Shown here: positions 1 through 8,891 of the stretch, piece after piece
Numbering within the stretch: the stretch's first letter is position 1
Layout: every line of letters starts with the position of its first letter
DNA from: JACPSX01 sp035288405 [NCBI: bacterium]
GTDB lineage: Bacteria; JACPSX01
Length of the DNA stretch: 8,891 nt
Direction of reading: 5' to 3'
NCBI GenBank assembly: GCA_035288405.1
Contig: DATEAK010000226.1
Coordinates: forward strand, 1-8,891
Program-made: the position numbers and the translations under genes
The notes under the pieces: model-generated
Told to the model about the DNA's origin: nothing
Seen by the model: only the letters and a program-made list of their open reading frames with translations
The model's database searches: none

Positions 1-180
1 AAAGATACGAGCAAGAGGCCCCTGGACCGGCAGGTAGAGGTTGCCGCCATCTCCCAGCCCTCGCTGGCAACAAATTTCATCATCTACACACCTGAAGAAT
101 TCAGAAAGCAACAGGAGAACGGGAACTTCTTTGTCGTGGAAGAGATCCTGAAGCGGGGCGAAGTCCTCTATGAGAGATAG
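1..180 (+). CDS. Minimal nucleotidyltransferase (MNT, MntA-like), C-terminal end only
   Basis: Frame 1 is open from the first base to the TAG at 178-180 and encodes the last 59 residues of a protein whose start lies outside the window. The visible part has the usual tail of Pol-beta-fold minimal nucleotidyltransferases: a strand with AAISQPS, the sequence IIYTPEEFRKQ, then FFVVEEILKRGEVLYER at the C-terminus. The catalytic GSxxxG...DxD motif would lie upstream and cannot be checked. Its last 11 bases overlap the start of the HEPN gene, the classic arrangement of an MNT-HEPN pair, which implies translational coupling. In characterised pairs the MNT protein modifies or neutralises the HEPN partner with nucleotides. 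Whether that holds here is inference. The family call is fairly secure from the tail and the neighbour, but catalytic competence is unknown. Confidence 0.8.
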   Translation, partial: KDTSKRPLDRQVEVAAISQPSLATNFIIYTPEEFRKQQENGNFFVVEEILKRGEVLYER

Positions 181-562
181 CACTCGCTGGATGAAGCTGG
201 CGAAGGAAGATCAAAAAATGGCGAAGCTCGCCTACGACGCCAGACTTTACAATCAGGTATGTTTTCACTGCCAACAGGGAGCGGAAAAGTGCTTGAAAGC
301 CTTCCTCCTTGAAAAGGACGGAAAGTATCCCAAGACCCACTCCCTTGCCGAACTCCTCAGCCTGGCAAGTCTCCGTAACGAAAGCCTTTTTGGTTTGAAG
401 GATGACTGTTTCTACCTCGACCAATTCTATGTGCCCACGCGGTATCCCGATGCACCTCTGGGTAGCCTGCCGGAGGGAGAACCCAAACGAAAAGACGCTC
501 AAAGGGCGATGGAAATCCTGATGGACCTCCTGAGAAGGATCACAAAAGAACTTTCGGATTAG
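170..562 (+). CDS. HEPN-domain protein, partner of the MNT protein
   Basis: A 130-residue protein of the small stand-alone HEPN family, at its usual length. Recognisable points are the N-terminal helix WMKLAKEDQKMA, the helix FHCQQGAEKCLKAFL (32-46), KTHSL (55-59), and YVPTRYPD (87-94), a hallmark of the MNT-associated HEPN group. The fold should be an all-alpha helical bundle that dimerises and binds the MNT protein; no signal peptide or membrane segment is seen. Many toxic HEPN RNases carry an R-x4-6-H motif. None is present: the histidines are H33 and H57, and the nearest upstream arginine to H33 is R25, seven residues between. This protein is therefore more likely a binding or regulatory subunit than an RNase. 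It starts with ATG inside the MNT gene, and a Clp1-like kinase gene starts 6 bp after its stop, so all three are probably co-transcribed. Confidence 0.88.
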   Translation: MRDSTRWMKLAKEDQKMAKLAYDARLYNQVCFHCQQGAEKCLKAFLLEKDGKYPKTHSLAELLSLASLRNESLFGLKDDCFYLDQFYVPTRYPDAPLGSLPEGEPKRKDAQRAMEILMDLLRRITKELSD

Positions 563-568
563 AGAAGC

Positions 569-1450
569 ATGGATGTTCCCGATTCCTGGCAGGAACTTTC
601 AGACGCATTAGCCCGCCATCCGGGAGTGGTCCTCTTTCTCGGTGAGCCGGATGCCGGCAAGAGCACCTGCGCTCTTTATCTCGTCGAAGAACTCAGGAGC
701 CGCGGGCTTTCCGTTGCTCTTGTCGATGGAGACATTGGACAGGCTCACCTGGGGCCACCCGCCACACAAGGGTTTGCGCTAGCCACCTCGCAAGGCCTTC
801 AACTTCAGAACCTCTACTTTGTTGGGGCCATCACCCCCGCAGGGTTTCTCATGCAGGTCGCCGGTGGGCTAAAGAAGCTCGCCGACCACGCTCGGGCGCG
901 GAAGGTTCAGGTGATTTTGGTAAACACTACGGGGTTTGTCAGCGGCTCTACAGCGACGGCCCTCAAGCTCCACAAAGTAGAACTCCTCTCTCCTCGCCAC
1001 ATCGTAGCGATCGAGCGCGGAGACGAACTTGGCGGAATCCTCAGGGGCCTCTCCTCTTCACCAGAATTGAGCCTCCACCGCCTGGCCGCCTCCCGCCACG
1101 CGCTCTTGCGGTCCCCCGAGCAGAGACAATCGTATCGCCGCCGGCGCTATCGAGACTACTTCGCCGACTCCGGACGTCTTGAGGTCCCCCTGCAAGGCTG
1201 CATCCGGATGGAATATGCTGGCAGAGCCCCGCTACTCGCCAGAAACCCGCAGGCTTTGCTCGACCTCATGGTGGGACTCAACGATTCCGAGGACTTCGCC
1301 CTCGGCGTAGGGATCATCCGGGATCTGACGGAAGACTCCACAATCCTGTCCGTAGAAACTCCGCTGCGCGATTTATCGGCCGTCACTTGCTGCCGCATCG
1401 GTGCAGTCGCCATCGGCCCGAATTGGGAGGATCACCCGCTGGTTTCTTAG
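569..1450 (+). CDS. Clp1-like polynucleotide 5'-hydroxyl kinase (Clp1/GlmU-type P-loop protein)
   Basis: A 293-residue P-loop protein resembling the kinase core of the Clp1/Nol9/Grc3 family, enzymes that phosphorylate 5'-OH ends of RNA or DNA with ATP or GTP. Visible motifs are Walker A GEPDAGKST (25-33); DGDIGQ followed by PP (53-64), the family's metal/phosphate signature; VNTTGFVSG (118-126), matching the Walker-B-like 'NT.G...G' segment; KLHKVELLSP (133-142); and an arginine-rich stretch RQSYRRRRYRDYF (186-198), where the family has its lid and 5'-end contacts. About 95 residues follow as a small C-terminal domain. It lacks the N-terminal domain of eukaryotic Clp1 and is shorter than the archaeal kinase. 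The protein looks soluble and cytoplasmic. It lies 6 bp after the HEPN gene, so translation is probably coupled. RNA or DNA preference cannot be read from sequence; an RNA-repair or processing role is inference from the family. The family call is firm; the substrate is not. Confidence 0.85.
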   Translation: MDVPDSWQELSDALARHPGVVLFLGEPDAGKSTCALYLVEELRSRGLSVALVDGDIGQAHLGPPATQGFALATSQGLQLQNLYFVGAITPAGFLMQVAGGLKKLADHARARKVQVILVNTTGFVSGSTATALKLHKVELLSPRHIVAIERGDELGGILRGLSSSPELSLHRLAASRHALLRSPEQRQSYRRRRYRDYFADSGRLEVPLQGCIRMEYAGRAPLLARNPQALLDLMVGLNDSEDFALGVGIIRDLTEDSTILSVETPLRDLSAVTCCRIGAVAIGPNWEDHPLVS

Positions 1451-1453
1451 GTA

Positions 1454-1468
1454 TGGTAAAATTTGACA
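1454..1468 (+). promoter_or_regulatory. Promoter-like sequence ahead of the macro-domain gene
   Basis: The gap after the Clp1-like gene contains TGGTAAAAT (1454-1462), an extended -10 element (TGn plus TAAAAT, 5 of 6 matches to TATAAT), with only a poor -35 upstream. Directly behind it is a perfect TTGACA (1463-1468), but its matching -10 about 17-19 bp on (around GAATAT, 1487-1492) is weak. If the extended -10 is used, the transcript would begin near 1469 and leave a leader of about 36 nt carrying the ribosome binding site. This is a by-eye match only; the macro gene could equally be read from the upstream operon. Confidence 0.35.
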
Positions 1469-1492
1469 ATTACACGAATCAGCCAGGAATAT

Positions 1493-1498
1493 GGGGGA
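1493..1498 (+). promoter_or_regulatory. Ribosome binding site deciding the macro-domain start
   Basis: GGGGGA lies 6 nt before the ATG at 1505. The longer in-frame alternative, a TTG at 1463, has no such sequence in front, and the 14 residues it would add do not belong to the macro fold. The ATG at 1505 is therefore taken as the start. Confidence 0.65.
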
Positions 1499-1504
1499 AA
1501 AGCA

Positions 1505-2059
1505 ATGGAAATCGTGGTTCAAAAGGGGAGCATCCTCGAAGTCCAATCCGACGGAATCGTCAATGCCGCCAACAGCCAGGGCGTCATGGGGGGCGGCGTG
1601 GCCGGCGTGATCCGGCGGGCGGCCGGCAAGGAAGTCGAAGAAGAGGCCGTTGCCCAAGCGCCCATTCCCGTGGGTTCCGCCGTCCTGACGGGGGCTGGCA
1701 GGACCCAATTTCGAGGGATTATCCACGCACCGACGATGCCCTTGCCGGCCCAGCGCATTCCTGCGGAAAATGTCTATAAGGCGACCGGGGCAGCCTTGCA
1801 GCTAGCCGAGGAAAAAGCGTTTCATAGTGTGGCCCTGCCGGGAATGGGAACGGGAGTCGGGGGAGTCGCTCACCAGGAAGCGGCCCGGCAGATGATGAAA
1901 GCCATTGGGGAGTTCAGCGGAAAAAACGTCCAAAAAGTGATCTTGGTGGACGTGGATCCATCCATGGTTGCTGCCTGGAAGGAAGCTCTCGAAGAATCGG
2001 ATTCGACCACGGACCCCAGAGTACACAGGAAATATAGGGGCGAAGGAGAAACGAAATAA
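1505..2059 (+). CDS. Macro-domain (ADP-ribose-binding) protein
   Basis: A single-domain macro protein of 184 residues, the normal length for the stand-alone family. Macro domains bind ADP-ribose or related nucleotides, and some remove ADP-ribose from proteins or nucleic acids or the phosphate from ADP-ribose-1''-phosphate. Visible motifs are IVNAAN (18-23), the glycine-rich loop GVMGGGV (26-32), and the phosphate-loop segment LPGMGTGVGG near residues 115-124. The fold is clear. Two positions differ from the commonest pattern. The 'GDI' aspartate that usually contacts adenine is serine in KGSIL (S9), and the residue after GGGV, an aspartate in MacroD-type hydrolases, is alanine (A33), as I recall it also being in archaeal Af1521. 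Ligand choice and activity are therefore uncertain. The gene follows the Clp1-like kinase by 54 bp on the same strand, possibly with its own promoter. The last 25 or so residues are polar and probably a flexible tail. Confidence 0.9.
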   Translation: MEIVVQKGSILEVQSDGIVNAANSQGVMGGGVAGVIRRAAGKEVEEEAVAQAPIPVGSAVLTGAGRTQFRGIIHAPTMPLPAQRIPAENVYKATGAALQLAEEKAFHSVALPGMGTGVGGVAHQEAARQMMKAIGEFSGKNVQKVILVDVDPSMVAAWKEALEESDSTTDPRVHRKYRGEGETK

Positions 2060-2107: not shown

Positions 2108-3850
2108 ATGGAGTCTAGAACTCATCCGCCGTTTTCAGCCAACGCCCTCACCGTCCTCGAGAAACGATACCTGAAAAAGGACAAAGAGGGAAAAGTCGTC
2201 GAGACACCGGAGGAGATGCTCCGGCGGGTGGCTGAAAACATCGCCTCGGCGGAGCGACTTCACAATCCGCAAGCAGATACGGGAGAAATGGCCCGAAAAT
2301 TTTACCGGCTCATGTCCTCTCTTACATTTCTCCCGAATTCCCCCACTTTGATGAATGCGGGGCGCAGCCTCCAGCAGCTCGCCGCCTGTTTCGTGCTCCC
2401 CATCGAAGACTCTCTGGAGTCCATCTTTAGTGCGGTGAAACAGAGCGCCCTGATCCATCAGAGCGGAGGAGGTACCGGCTTTTCCTTTAGTCGGGTAAGG
2501 CCGCGCCAGGACATCGTGGGCACCACGGGCGGGATCGCCAGCGGCCCGGTATCTTTCATCCGCGTCTTCAACATGACGACAGAGGTCATCAAACAAGGCG
2601 GAACCCGGCGCGGTGCGAACATGGGGATTCTGCGGGTCGATCATCCGGACATCCTGGAGTTCATCTCGGTCAAGGAAGATCCCAAGGAACTGACCAACTT
2701 CAACCTTTCCGTAGGCGTCACGGATGCTTTCATGGAAGCTGTGGAGAAAGGAGAGACTTACCCCCTGCTAAACCCCCACAGGAAAGCCATCGTGGCCCAG
2801 CTTCCCGCCCGGGACGTCTTTACCCGGATGGCAGAGGCCGCGTGGCGCAGCGGGGAGCCCGGCGTCATCTTTCTGGACCACGTGAACGCACACAACCCGA
2901 CCCCGGTCCTGGGAACCATTGAAGCCACCAACCCGTGTGGAGAACAACCTCTCCTCCCTTACGAAGCCTGCAATTTGGGTTCCATCAATTTGGCCGCGAT
3001 GATTACCGAAGATGAAGCCTTCCCTGCGATCGACTATCGAGAGCTGGAAGCCGCGGTACGGCTGGCCGTCCGGTTTTTAGACAATGTGATTGATGTGAAC
3101 CGCTATCCCCTTCCGGAGATCGAAGCGATGGCCAAGGGAAACCGGAAGATCGGACTGGGGGTGATGGGGTTCGCGGACCTTCTCCTGCTTTTGGGGATCG
3201 CCTACGACAGCGAGGAGGCATTGCAAGTCGCCGAAGAAATCATGGGTTTCATTCATAAGGCTGCCTGGGAGGAATCGGCGCGCCTGGCCCGGGAGCGCAG
3301 CCCCTTTCCGAACTTCGGGAAAAGTATCTTTAACGAATCAAACCGCGAGCCGGTGCGAAACGCCACGGTGACCACAGTGGCTCCCACGGGGACACTGAGC
3401 ATTCTGGCGAATTGCACGAGCGGCATCGAGCCCCTCTTTGCCTTGAGTTACGAGCGCAACGTCTTGGGGGGAATCCGCCTGCGAGAGATCAACCCGAGCT
3501 TTCTGCATCTCGCCCGGAGCGAAGGATTTTACAGCGAGGCCCTCATCAAAGGCCTTCAGGAAGGGGCGCCCCTTCGTGCTCTGCCACGACTGCCGGGCCG
3601 GATCAGCTCGATTTTGCGTACCGCTTTCGACATCGCCCCGGAGGGACACGTGCGAATGCAAGCCGCCTTCCAGAAACATACGGACAACGCCGTCTCCAAA
3701 ACCATTAATTTCCCCCCTCAGGCCACCGTTGAAGATGTCGCCAGAGTCTTCCGCCTGGCCTACACGCTGGGCTGCAAGGGAATCACCGTCTACCGCAGCG
3801 GCAGCCGGGAGCACCAAGTCCTGGCCTGCGGCAGCGTCCACGTATGCTGA
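2108..3850 (+). CDS. nrdJ: Adenosylcobalamin-dependent (class II) ribonucleotide reductase
   Basis: Reduces ribonucleotides to deoxyribonucleotides using a cysteinyl radical generated from adenosylcobalamin, so it works with or without oxygen and needs no separate radical subunit. The 580-residue protein shows the class II catalytic core: LPNSPTLMNAG (75-85); a redox cysteine C94 in AACFVLP; SGGGTGFSFSR; NPCGE with N275, radical cysteine C277 and E279; the partner cysteine C288 in ACNLGSINL; VAPTGTLSILANCTSGIEP; and GCKGITVYR near the C-terminus. There is no N-terminal ATP-cone. Many NrdJ proteins of this type run beyond 700 residues and end in a cysteine-rich zinc-finger-like tail. Here the protein stops a few residues after the GCKGITVYR segment, at HQVLACGSVHVC, leaving only C574 and C580 as a likely thioredoxin-reducible pair. 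No frameshift explains this. The family call is very secure. Confidence 0.97.
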   Translation: MESRTHPPFSANALTVLEKRYLKKDKEGKVVETPEEMLRRVAENIASAERLHNPQADTGEMARKFYRLMSSLTFLPNSPTLMNAGRSLQQLAACFVLPIEDSLESIFSAVKQSALIHQSGGGTGFSFSRVRPRQDIVGTTGGIASGPVSFIRVFNMTTEVIKQGGTRRGANMGILRVDHPDILEFISVKEDPKELTNFNLSVGVTDAFMEAVEKGETYPLLNPHRKAIVAQLPARDVFTRMAEAAWRSGEPGVIFLDHVNAHNPTPVLGTIEATNPCGEQPLLPYEACNLGSINLAAMITEDEAFPAIDYRELEAAVRLAVRFLDNVIDVNRYPLPEIEAMAKGNRKIGLGVMGFADLLLLLGIAYDSEEALQVAEEIMGFIHKAAWEESARLARERSPFPNFGKSIFNESNREPVRNATVTTVAPTGTLSILANCTSGIEPLFALSYERNVLGGIRLREINPSFLHLARSEGFYSEALIKGLQEGAPLRALPRLPGRISSILRTAFDIAPEGHVRMQAAFQKHTDNAVSKTINFPPQATVEDVARVFRLAYTLGCKGITVYRSGSREHQVLACGSVHVC

Positions 3851-7394: not shown

Positions 7395-8466
7395 TCCCTT
7401 CTCTCTCTTCGAGAAATCGCTTCATTTGCTGTAAAAGATCCGCGGGCATTTCCTGAAAGGTATACCGAAAGATGTCGCGCGGGTCAGGAGGAGGCATCGC
7501 TTCAAACTCCCTGACCGCTGCTTCCACCTGCACCAGAACTTCTGAGATCACCTGTTCACCATAAGAGGGGTCCCAGAGCCCTTTTTTCTCCATGTATTTT
7601 TTCAAGCGCTGGATGGGATCCTTCGCCCGCCAGGCCTGAACTTCTTCCGGCTTGCGGTAGCGCGTGGAGTCGTCCGCCGTGGTGTGATCGCTCATACGAT
7701 ACGTCACGCATTCAATGAGGGTGGGCCCTCCTCCTTTCCGGGCCCGGTCCAGCGCCTCCTGAGCTGCTTTGTAGACGGCAAAGACATCATTCCCGTCCAC
7801 CTGGATCCCTCCAAAGCCATAGGCGATCGCCTTCTGGGCCAGGCTCTGTGCCCCAGTCTGCCGCTGCAACGGCATAGAGATGGCCCACTGGTTGTTCTGG
7901 CAAAGGAAGACGATGGGCAGGGAGAAGATTCCTGCAAAATTAAGTCCCTCATGAAAATCCCCCTTGGAGGTTGCACCGTCTCCAAAGTAAACGATGACGG
8001 CGATCCGATCTCCTTTGGTCTTGGCTGCCCATGCGGCCCCTACCGCAATAGGGATTTGAGTTCCCACAGGGATTGTGATGGGAAAATCGTTGTGACCTTC
8101 CGGGATCTGACCTCCTCGTTCATCTCCTGACCAGTACAGATAAATCAACTTCAGGGGAAGGCCTCTCACAAGATAGGCTCCTGTCTCCCGATACGAAGGG
8201 AACAACCAATCCGACGGCTGCAAAGCATAGGCACTTCCCACCTGCACGGCCTCCTGTCCCAGAATGGGGGCATAGGTCCCGATTCGTCCTTCGCGCTGGA
8301 GTTTAAAGGCCCTCTCATCCACACTCCTGGCCAGGACCATCCATTCATACAGCTTCCTTATCTCCCGATCCGTGAGGAGTGGACGAATGTGCTCATCACA
8401 ATTCCCCTCCTCATCCAGGATCTGGAGCCATTCAACGTCAAAGCTTTTGATGGTTTTCTTGGGCAT
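7384..8466 (-). CDS. pdhA: Pyruvate dehydrogenase E1 component, alpha subunit
   Basis: Thiamine-diphosphate-binding half of E1. The 360-residue protein carries the family's cofactor motif, GDGATSKGDFHEGLNFAG (162-179) ending at NN (191-192). Other signatures are GRIGTYAPILGQEA (60-73), WLFPSYRE (87-94), and the loop YRMSDHTTADDSTRYR, which holds the conserved histidine and matches the pattern in Gram-positive and thermophile pyruvate dehydrogenases. It is the first gene of the operon and starts at ATG 8466 with AAAGGA a few nt upstream, directly behind a promoter-like sequence. The order alpha-beta-E2 without a fused E1 (AceE type) separates it from enterobacterial complexes. Acetoin or branched-chain 2-oxo-acid dehydrogenase E1 alpha is the alternative; the loop sequence and the opposite-strand thiolase favour pyruvate. 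Confidence 0.95.
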   Translation of the reverse strand: MPKKTIKSFDVEWLQILDEEGNCDEHIRPLLTDREIRKLYEWMVLARSVDERAFKLQREGRIGTYAPILGQEAVQVGSAYALQPSDWLFPSYRETGAYLVRGLPLKLIYLYWSGDERGGQIPEGHNDFPITIPVGTQIPIAVGAAWAAKTKGDRIAVIVYFGDGATSKGDFHEGLNFAGIFSLPIVFLCQNNQWAISMPLQRQTGAQSLAQKAIAYGFGGIQVDGNDVFAVYKAAQEALDRARKGGGPTLIECVTYRMSDHTTADDSTRYRKPEEVQAWRAKDPIQRLKKYMEKKGLWDPSYGEQVISEVLVQVEAAVREFEAMPPPDPRDIFRYTFQEMPADLLQQMKRFLEEREGSEG

Positions 8467-8620
8467 GGTGGTCCTTTGTCTTAACTAGAAATTAGCTGCT
8501 AGACGATTTAATTTCAAACAACTTTTCGTTTTTTTTATTTCCGCTAATATAGAAGGGTAGGTTGCCCTTAATCGCGCGGTCCAAAAAATGAGTGTGAACG
8601 CCGACTTGAGAGGAACAACC
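8467..8620. promoter_or_regulatory. Divergent control region between pdhA and the thiolase gene
   Basis: This 154-bp spacer is clearly more AT-rich than the genes on either side, especially from 8481 to 8550, and must hold the start signals of both divergent genes. On the minus strand, a -35-like TTGAAA (5 of 6 matches) at 8512-8517 is followed at exactly 17 bp by a weaker TAATTT at 8489-8494, giving a short leader to pdhA. On the plus strand the best candidate is TAATAT at 8545-8550 with a poor TTTTCG at 8523-8528. An inverted repeat, AAGGG-7 nt-CCCTT at 8553-8569, lies just downstream of that -10 and could be an operator. Plus-strand RBS: GAGAGGA (8608-8614), 6 nt before the thiolase ATG. 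All assignments are by eye. Confidence 0.5.
8489..8517 (-). promoter_or_regulatory. Candidate promoter of the pdh operon
   Basis: Read on the minus strand: TTGAAA, a 17-bp spacer, then TAATTT, with a predicted start about 16 nt before the pdhA ATG. The -35 is good and the -10 weak. An imperfect palindrome, CTAG-(N10)-CTAG at 8485-8502, covers the -10, where a repressor could bind. This is one of several possible readings. Confidence 0.35.
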
Positions 8621-8891
8621 ATGAGGAAAGCTGTAATTGTCAGCGCCGCACGAACCCCGATCGGAAGCTTCAACGGGGTCCTCAGTCCGCTGCCCGCCAC
8701 CAAGCTCGGGAGCATCGCAATCGCTGAAGCGCTAAGAAGGGTAAGCCTAGAGGGCCAAGAAGTGAGTGAGGTGATCATGGGAAACGTCCTCTCCGCAGGT
8801 CTGGGGCAAGCCCCGGCTCGTCAGGCCAGTCTGAGGGCAGGTCTTCCCAAAGAAGTGGGGTGCACGACGATCAACAAGGTTTGCGGTTCAG
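8621..8891 (+). CDS. Acetyl-CoA C-acetyltransferase (thiolase), N-terminal part, cut by the window end
   Basis: The first 90 residues of a thiolase (atoB/thlA/phaA type), open to the last base of the window. It opens with [19 protein letters not shown], the classic thiolase N-terminus, and continues with [26 protein letters not shown] and TINKVCGS. C88 in that last motif is the nucleophilic cysteine that forms the acyl-enzyme. The enzyme joins two acetyl-CoA to acetoacetyl-CoA, or runs in reverse in fatty-acid breakdown; the remaining domains and the GHP and CxG motifs lie outside. ATG 8621 is preferred because GAGAGGA is 6 nt upstream and the family starts there. An in-frame ATG at 8588 would add 11 residues and lacks a ribosome site. 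The gene is divergent from the pyruvate dehydrogenase operon, which makes its acetyl-CoA substrate. A longer-chain acyl-CoA specificity cannot be excluded. Confidence 0.93.

Follow-up and report, generated by a model that had tools for sequence, protein, structure and literature searches.

A Clp1-family kinase gene and a macro-domain gene as a candidate two-gene RNA-end unit next to an MNT–HEPN pair

The 8,891-nucleotide stretch analysed here (hereafter the window; assembly GCA_035288405.1, contig DATEAK010000226.1) begins with four genes on the same strand, which encode the end of an MNT-type nucleotidyltransferase, a HEPN-domain protein, a Clp1-family kinase and a macro-domain protein. In comparison with the nearest relative, the kinase gene (clp1) and the macro gene form a conserved unit, MNT–HEPN does not belong to it, and RtcA is the neighbour in the relative. 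We therefore tentatively propose, with modest support, that the core of the locus is a lineage-specific two-gene RNA-end unit, in which a Clp1-family 5′-hydroxyl kinase would be combined with a protein that removes or reads ADP-ribose. A sequence-only reading of the same DNA had joined all four genes in a single RNA-end or RNA-damage module. Its coordinates and gene spacing (an overlap of 11 bp followed by gaps of 6 and 54 bp) and its HEPN, Clp1-like kinase and macro identities were borne out, the latter by Pfam matches that were all above cut-off; of the module itself, the kinase–macro part was kept in one close relative, with RtcA beside it, and the MNT–HEPN part was not.

The kinase and macro genes

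The features at the start of the window are as follows.

1..180, + strand: 3′-terminal 59 codons of a gene for an MNT-type nucleotidyltransferase, recognised by homology of the tail; stop codon at 178-180
170..562, + strand: HEPN-domain gene, 130 amino acids (PF05168, 2.7e-27, above cut-off); 11-bp overlap with the MNT gene
569..1450, + strand: gene for a short bacterial Clp1-family polynucleotide 5′-hydroxyl kinase, 293 amino acids (CLP1_P PF16575, 1.9e-31); 6-bp gap after the HEPN gene
1451..1504, + strand: clp1–macro intergenic stretch, containing GGTAAAATTT at 1455-1464
1505..2059, + strand: gene for a TTHA0132-like macro-domain protein, 184 amino acids (Macro PF01661, 4.4e-29); 54-bp gap after clp1

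A contig scan with a reach of close relatives gave two matches: L001, a 9.3-kb contig of a Candidatus Tectomicrobia metagenome-assembled genome (MAG; genome G001), whose kinase is 71% identical to that of the window, and L002, from a Capsulimonas record, in which the kinase match is 34%. No kinase closer than that of L001 was found among 212 relatives of genome G268. In L001, clp1 lies at 7992-8882 and the macro gene (Macro, 5e-21) follows 64 bp later in tandem, its product being 88% identical to the window macro protein over the 104 amino acids available. A divergent RtcA gene (RTC PF01137, 8e-77; PF05189, 2e-20) starts 135 bp upstream of clp1, and no homologue of either the window HEPN protein or the MNT tail was found on the 9.3-kb contig. 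Nonsynonymous (dN) and synonymous (dS) divergence between the window and L001 were 0.17 and 1.07 for clp1 (dN/dS ~0.16) and 0.063 and 0.93 for macro (dN/dS ~0.07); as judged from these comparisons, both genes are under purifying selection, and the low dN relative to dS indicates that both have been retained next to differing upstream genes. The B12-dependent ribonucleotide reductase (NrdJ) encoded downstream of macro in the window has its best match in G001 at only 42% and on another contig, suggesting that the pair does not belong to a larger, plainly conserved segment. The status of the pair as a conserved unit thus follows from its retention in L001, without MNT–HEPN, across diverged surroundings.

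The mechanical list of open reading frames (ORFs) begins macro at TTG 1463, and we prefer ATG 1505 because the macro protein of L001 begins at the matching residue. Directly after the clp1 stop codon, GGTAAAATTT is common to the window (1455-1464) and L001 (8888-8897), and the rest of the spacer has diverged. This motif is possibly a −10-like element for macro; the consensus promoter and terminator scan did not pick it up and gave no excess over shuffled sequences.

The window kinase scored 109.8 bits against a curated CLP1_P cut-off of 26.6, and its Walker A (GEPDAGKS) and Walker B (DIGQ) motifs both fit the definitions GxxxxGK[S/T] and [D/E]hhQ. Compared with the clasp [T/S/L]xGW, the window sequence TTGF retains TxG with F in the place of W. 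In a comparison of the clasp and lid motifs in 10 of the kinases examined, TTGF also occurred in L001 and L133, the variants SSGF, STGF and TSGF occurred in L049, L155 and L149, a clasp with W occurred in the long-form kinases of L138 and L158, and L051 and L151 had no match to the clasp pattern. A lid-like RxxxxR (RSPEQR) followed by an arginine-rich run is present in the window kinase, this being a weak pattern that was not found in L133. The AlphaFold model, built on a 3-row alignment, is of low confidence (mean pLDDT 54.9), and the first 17 Foldseek matches obtained with it, all of them Clp1 or Las1–Grc3 entries, carry little weight alone. Matches to PADLOC (4e-4 to mad8, over a short stretch) and PHROGs (0.0013) were also recorded, and searches for Clp1 gave no confirmed match in viral contigs and no match in plasmids. 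To our knowledge, no job has been assigned to the Clp1 family in bacteria. The RNA 5′-kinase activity of Thermus scotoductus Clp1 (Ts-Clp1) has been measured (PMC6777427), and by relationship to such proteins the window kinase is probably a 5′-hydroxyl RNA kinase.

The window macro protein scored 101.3 bits against a Macro cut-off of 22, and its closest match in the PDB is TTHA0132 (2dx6). The best NCBIfam model was NF001666, "ADP-ribose-binding protein" (213.5 bits, under its cut-off of 246), and the best-matching PHROGs family (1.5e-27) is one of unknown function. Its loop reads GGGVAG and does not contain the Asp found in the MacroD loop GGGVDG. The protein matched the PADLOC model of DarG at 3.8e-12 and the NCBIfam model of DarG with 41.7 bits against a cut-off of 250. 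A known defence system was considered for the window genes and was not supported by PADLOC, the DarG match reflecting the shared macro domain and the HEPN protein falling in no family. According to the available text of two studies, macrodomains of several classes remove ADP-ribose from 5′-phosphates, with the exceptions of DarG and the TARG1-like SCO6735, which do not strip ADP-ribose from such phosphates (PMC6582358, PMC11833690).

The MNT–HEPN pair and the remaining window genes

The MNT tail, a 59-codon fragment, had no Pfam match. At five of the 18 loci searched (L155, L173, L174, L175 and L176), however, it was 38-44% identical to the C-termini of proteins encoded just upstream of HEPN genes, and GSX10DXD was present in all five homologues. 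Because the tail resembles the C-termini of these GSX10DXD proteins, the MNT label of the sequence-only reading is right by homology, with the catalytic part of the protein outside the window. The position of the MNT gene directly upstream of, and overlapping, the HEPN gene fits the gene order of a HEPN–MNT toxin–antitoxin pair. No RX4-6H match was found in the 130 amino acids of the window HEPN protein, whose closest solved relatives are TM0613 and TT1696; HEPN proteins lacking this motif occur in MNT pairs, and RNase toxicity is not to be assumed for them, as far as the available text of PMC3710099 goes. In G001, the HEPN matches elsewhere were not close copies of the window protein (31% over 121 amino acids in L184 and 44% over 39 amino acids in L185). 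The HEPN protein had no family in PADLOC and none in PHROGs, and the MNT tail matched PADLOC at 0.033.

The GC content of the HEPN gene is 0.51, versus 0.60-0.61 for clp1 and macro, and both this value and its GC content at third codon positions (GC3, 0.59) are the lowest among the nine window genes measured. This composition is only a weak sign of foreign origin because the GC3 of the MNT tail (0.70) is ordinary. MNT–HEPN is best read as a separate toxin–antitoxin-type pair lying upstream, which the kinase–macro unit would not need, and it may be a newcomer to the locus. A separate observation was made at L155:1841-2536 in G268, where MNT and HEPN are encoded as one frame of 231 amino acids, possibly a natural fusion, ~5.6 kb upstream of the Clp1 gene.

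Downstream of macro, the window encodes NrdJ and then glutamate dehydrogenase, and three genes on the opposite strand were judged by eye to encode components of 2-oxoacid dehydrogenase. The NrdJ gene (2108-3850, 580 amino acids) shares 7 bp with the glutamate dehydrogenase ORF, and its product ends in CGSVHVC. This protein spans the 606-position NrdJ_Z model but just positions 9-577 of the 759-position model, and the C-terminal region of longer NrdJ forms is thus missing from it.

Kinase-bearing genomes

The survey covered 386 genomes chosen for their relatedness to G001, whose phylum was represented by no other genome. CLP1_P was matched at E<=0.001 in 110 genomes, of which 54 pass the curated cut-off; the 47 with a full match (E at most 1.5e-11) were counted, and the other seven, which pass only as summed fragments, were left out. 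The figure of 47 is a lower bound, since at most 8 candidates were scored in each genome and kinases can have been missed. Among the relatives of the Capsulimonas record G002, 30 of 41 genomes carry the kinase (G002 included), and 29 of these added to the 47 give 76 kinase-bearing genomes. These frequencies (47/386 and 30/41) greatly exceed that of a 2019 survey, which used another method and complete genomes and found Clp1 in 14 of 1,543 species (PMC6777427).

RtcA occurred in 45 of the 386 genomes, 10/47 with the kinase versus 35/339 without it (p=0.048), RtcB was enriched in kinase-bearing genomes (41/47 versus 209/339, p=5e-4), and Tpt1 was found in 0/47 versus 29/339 of the other genomes (p=0.035), all three statistics ignoring shared ancestry. 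In G001 itself, RtcA is present and Tpt1 was not found. The sequence-only reading had based the role of the macro protein on ADP-ribose-1″-phosphate from tRNA splicing; because Tpt1 was found in none of the 47 kinase-bearing genomes, this rationale is weakened and that substrate has been marked down as a candidate for the macro protein.

HEPN genes (PF05168) are present in 32/47 kinase-bearing genomes, in most cases away from the kinase: only one lies within 1.5 kb of a kinase among 47 loci, against 0.15 expected, which is not clearly above chance. This one case is G250 (L158), where a HEPN gene lies ~330 bp downstream of the kinase on the same strand with a 97-amino-acid ORF between. Among the matches listed, macro proteins 42-43% identical to that of the window are encoded near RtcB in G062 and G209, neighbourhoods that may represent one event because the intervening small gene is shared. 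The distance is three ORFs in L205 (G209), where an archease-like ORF follows RtcB, and one ORF in L206 (G062).

The Clp1 tree (57 rows) is a quick tree with support from the SH-like approximate likelihood ratio test (SH-aLRT) and no bootstrap; it omits nine of the 47 kinases (owing to failed gene calling, a fragment, a weak match or a sequence that was not retrieved) and, from the G002 relatives, 11 of the 29 added kinase genomes. The kinases of the window and L001 group with those of G127 and G268 (SH-aLRT 97). RtcA is carried by 3/3 genomes of this clade versus 4/35 other tree members of the 47, or 7/44 outside the clade when the nine off-tree kinases are added, a pattern that was noticed after the fact. 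In G127 (L207), a family search placed RtcA and RtcB one gene apart, and by eye a PCMT-like gene lies between them and an archease-like gene beyond.

Elsewhere in the tree, the long-form bacterial Clp1 proteins (~410-430 amino acids) make up one clade of 14 rows. A gene for a DHH-type phosphoesterase lies 1-6 genes upstream of long-form Clp1 on the same strand at nine loci (L138, L140, L141, L142, L143, L144, L150, L153 and L158), and a protein of ~140 amino acids with no clear Pfam family is encoded directly upstream, also on the same strand, at nine (L052, L138-L141, L143, L148, L152 and L158), some of the loci with the order DHH, small protein and Clp1 being near-copies of each other. By analogy, a 5′-kinase with a possible 5′-phosphate-dependent exonuclease of the DHH type would echo the logic of Grc3–Rat1. 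A literature search found no paper that covers four of the subjects Clp1, Grc3, DHH, RecJ and archaea.

Competing explanations and known systems

Many metal-independent RNases leave 5′-hydroxyl and cyclic-phosphate RNA ends. In the proposed two-gene unit, the Clp1-family kinase would phosphorylate 5′-hydroxyl ends left by RNA cleavage, and the macro protein would remove or read ADP-ribose, most plausibly on terminal phosphates, including 5′-phosphates of the kind that the kinase would produce. In the relative, RtcA would cyclise 3′-phosphates, the adenylylation of 5′-phosphates being an alternative activity of RtcA, and the joint resetting of 5′ and 3′ RNA ends could then lead to their ligation or decay. 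The enzymatic activities in the window organism, their shared substrate, the co-expression of the genes and the order of the steps are what we infer. Besides the conservation of the pair, points in favour of the unit are the RtcB enrichment in kinase-bearing genomes, the RtcA genes throughout the window-kinase clade, the measured activity of Ts-Clp1 and the macro genes near RtcB in G062 and G209. The retention of an ADP-ribose-handling neighbour, and the RtcA gene next to the pair in the relative, lead to the hypothesis that the kinase may act in an RNA 5′-end repair that includes the clearing of ADP-ribose from phosphate ends, and setting MNT–HEPN aside removes a misleading partner. A more elaborate form, in which the kinase, an eraser of ADP-ribose from RNA 5′-phosphates and RtcA make up a Clp1-based RNA-healing cassette that resets both ends after toxin attack by ADP-ribosylation or cleavage, some members having recruited MNT–HEPN to cause or sense the damage, seems rather unlikely to us.

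A close rival of the two-gene unit, and one that may quite possibly be correct, is that the kinase, a general macro protein and MNT–HEPN stand in a row by chance, the tandem being an inherited gene order with no shared function. Several points weigh for such a plain neighbourhood and against the unit. The pair was seen in only two genomes, those of the window and G001, and the L001 contig terminates inside macro. Macro genes are common, occurring somewhere in 68/76 kinase-bearing genomes, and G001 alone has one beside the kinase, none being seen there in the other 75; the next-nearest distances on one contig are ~29 kb and ~35 kb. Some of these links could be hidden because several of the kinases are encoded at the ends of contigs (e.g. 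G206, G352 and G043). The sequence-only reading had itself held that unlinked genes in related genomes would count against a module; the kinase–macro link was not seen in the large majority and survived in the nearest relative. The sister kinases of G127 (on a 5.6-kb contig) and G268 lie amid genes judged by eye to be unrelated, RtcA adjoins the kinase only in G001 among the 47, and RtcB was not found in G001, a MAG whose completeness is not stated. The spacer of 54-64 bp with its shared promoter-like motif may mean that macro is transcribed separately. Furthermore, the pair has no known ADP-ribosyltransferase partner, Tpt1 having been found in none of the 47 kinase-bearing genomes, and DarG, whose PADLOC model the window macro protein matches, is reported in the available text of PMC6582358 to be inactive on KptA-modified RNA. 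Against a plain neighbourhood, the pair stayed together although the upstream gene differs and NrdJ has no close match in G001, and in L001 the neighbouring RtcA is a third gene whose function suits the pair.

It is decidedly unlikely that all four genes form an RNA-damage module in which MNT–HEPN senses or regulates while the kinase and macro protein act on RNA ends and ADP-ribose products. The tight spacing into clp1, the HEPN gene close to the kinase in G250 and the MNT–HEPN frame of G268, a member of the window-kinase clade, are consistent with it, but MNT–HEPN is not on the L001 contig, HEPN proximity is not clearly above chance, the HEPN gene has the lowest GC and GC3 of the window genes, though the GC3 of the MNT tail is ordinary, and no Tpt1 was found in kinase genomes. 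A Las1–Grc3-like pair, with the HEPN protein as the RNA-cutting partner and the kinase phosphorylating the new 5′-hydroxyl, is highly improbable: the Clp1-family kinase Grc3 does activate a HEPN nuclease, Las1 (PMC10942766, available text), only 6 bp separate the HEPN stop from the clp1 start and the Foldseek matches include Las1–Grc3 entries, but the window HEPN protein has no RX4-6H site and belongs with MNT-linked PF05168 proteins, and its linkage to the kinase is not kept in L001.

Of the known systems, Las1–Grc3 (PMC10942766) likewise combines a HEPN protein with a Clp1/Grc3-family kinase, and differs in having a catalytic motif that the window HEPN protein lacks and in a HEPN–kinase linkage that is not conserved here. 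The type VII HepT–MntA pairs (PMC7641770, PMC11586414), in the text available, share the MNT gene upstream of HEPN with overlapping ends, whereas the window HEPN protein is of the PF05168 branch without RX4-6H, for which RNase toxicity cannot be presumed (PMC3710099). Ts-Clp1 shares the kinase family and both Walker motifs and differs in the clasp, where the window kinase has F and W is expected; the available part of PMC6777427 says nothing on its genomic surroundings.

The E. coli-type RtcA–RtcB RNA-repair cluster is similar in that RtcA lies near RNA-end enzymes, but in L001 RtcA is divergent from clp1–macro and RtcB was not found in G001. No report of a Clp1–macro or Clp1–RtcA arrangement was found in a search of titles and the beginnings of abstracts, mostly in literature outside subscription. 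Predicted bacterial operons of Thg1, a polynucleotide kinase and MACRO, in some cases with an RNA ligase, were described in 2010 (PMC2904730). As in the window and L001, a 5′-hydroxyl polynucleotide kinase gene there adjoins a MACRO gene with RNA-end enzymes nearby, and an RNA-repair logic was proposed. In the available text, however, the kinase is named only as "of the polynucleotide kinase family", with Thg1 as the constant partner, whereas the kinase here is of the Clp1 family and the third gene in L001 is RtcA; neither Thg1 nor an RNA ligase was found among the six window proteins scanned or by eye in L001, and no genome was searched for Thg1. The kinase–macro pair thus looks like a Clp1-based variant of the predicted kinase–MACRO operons.

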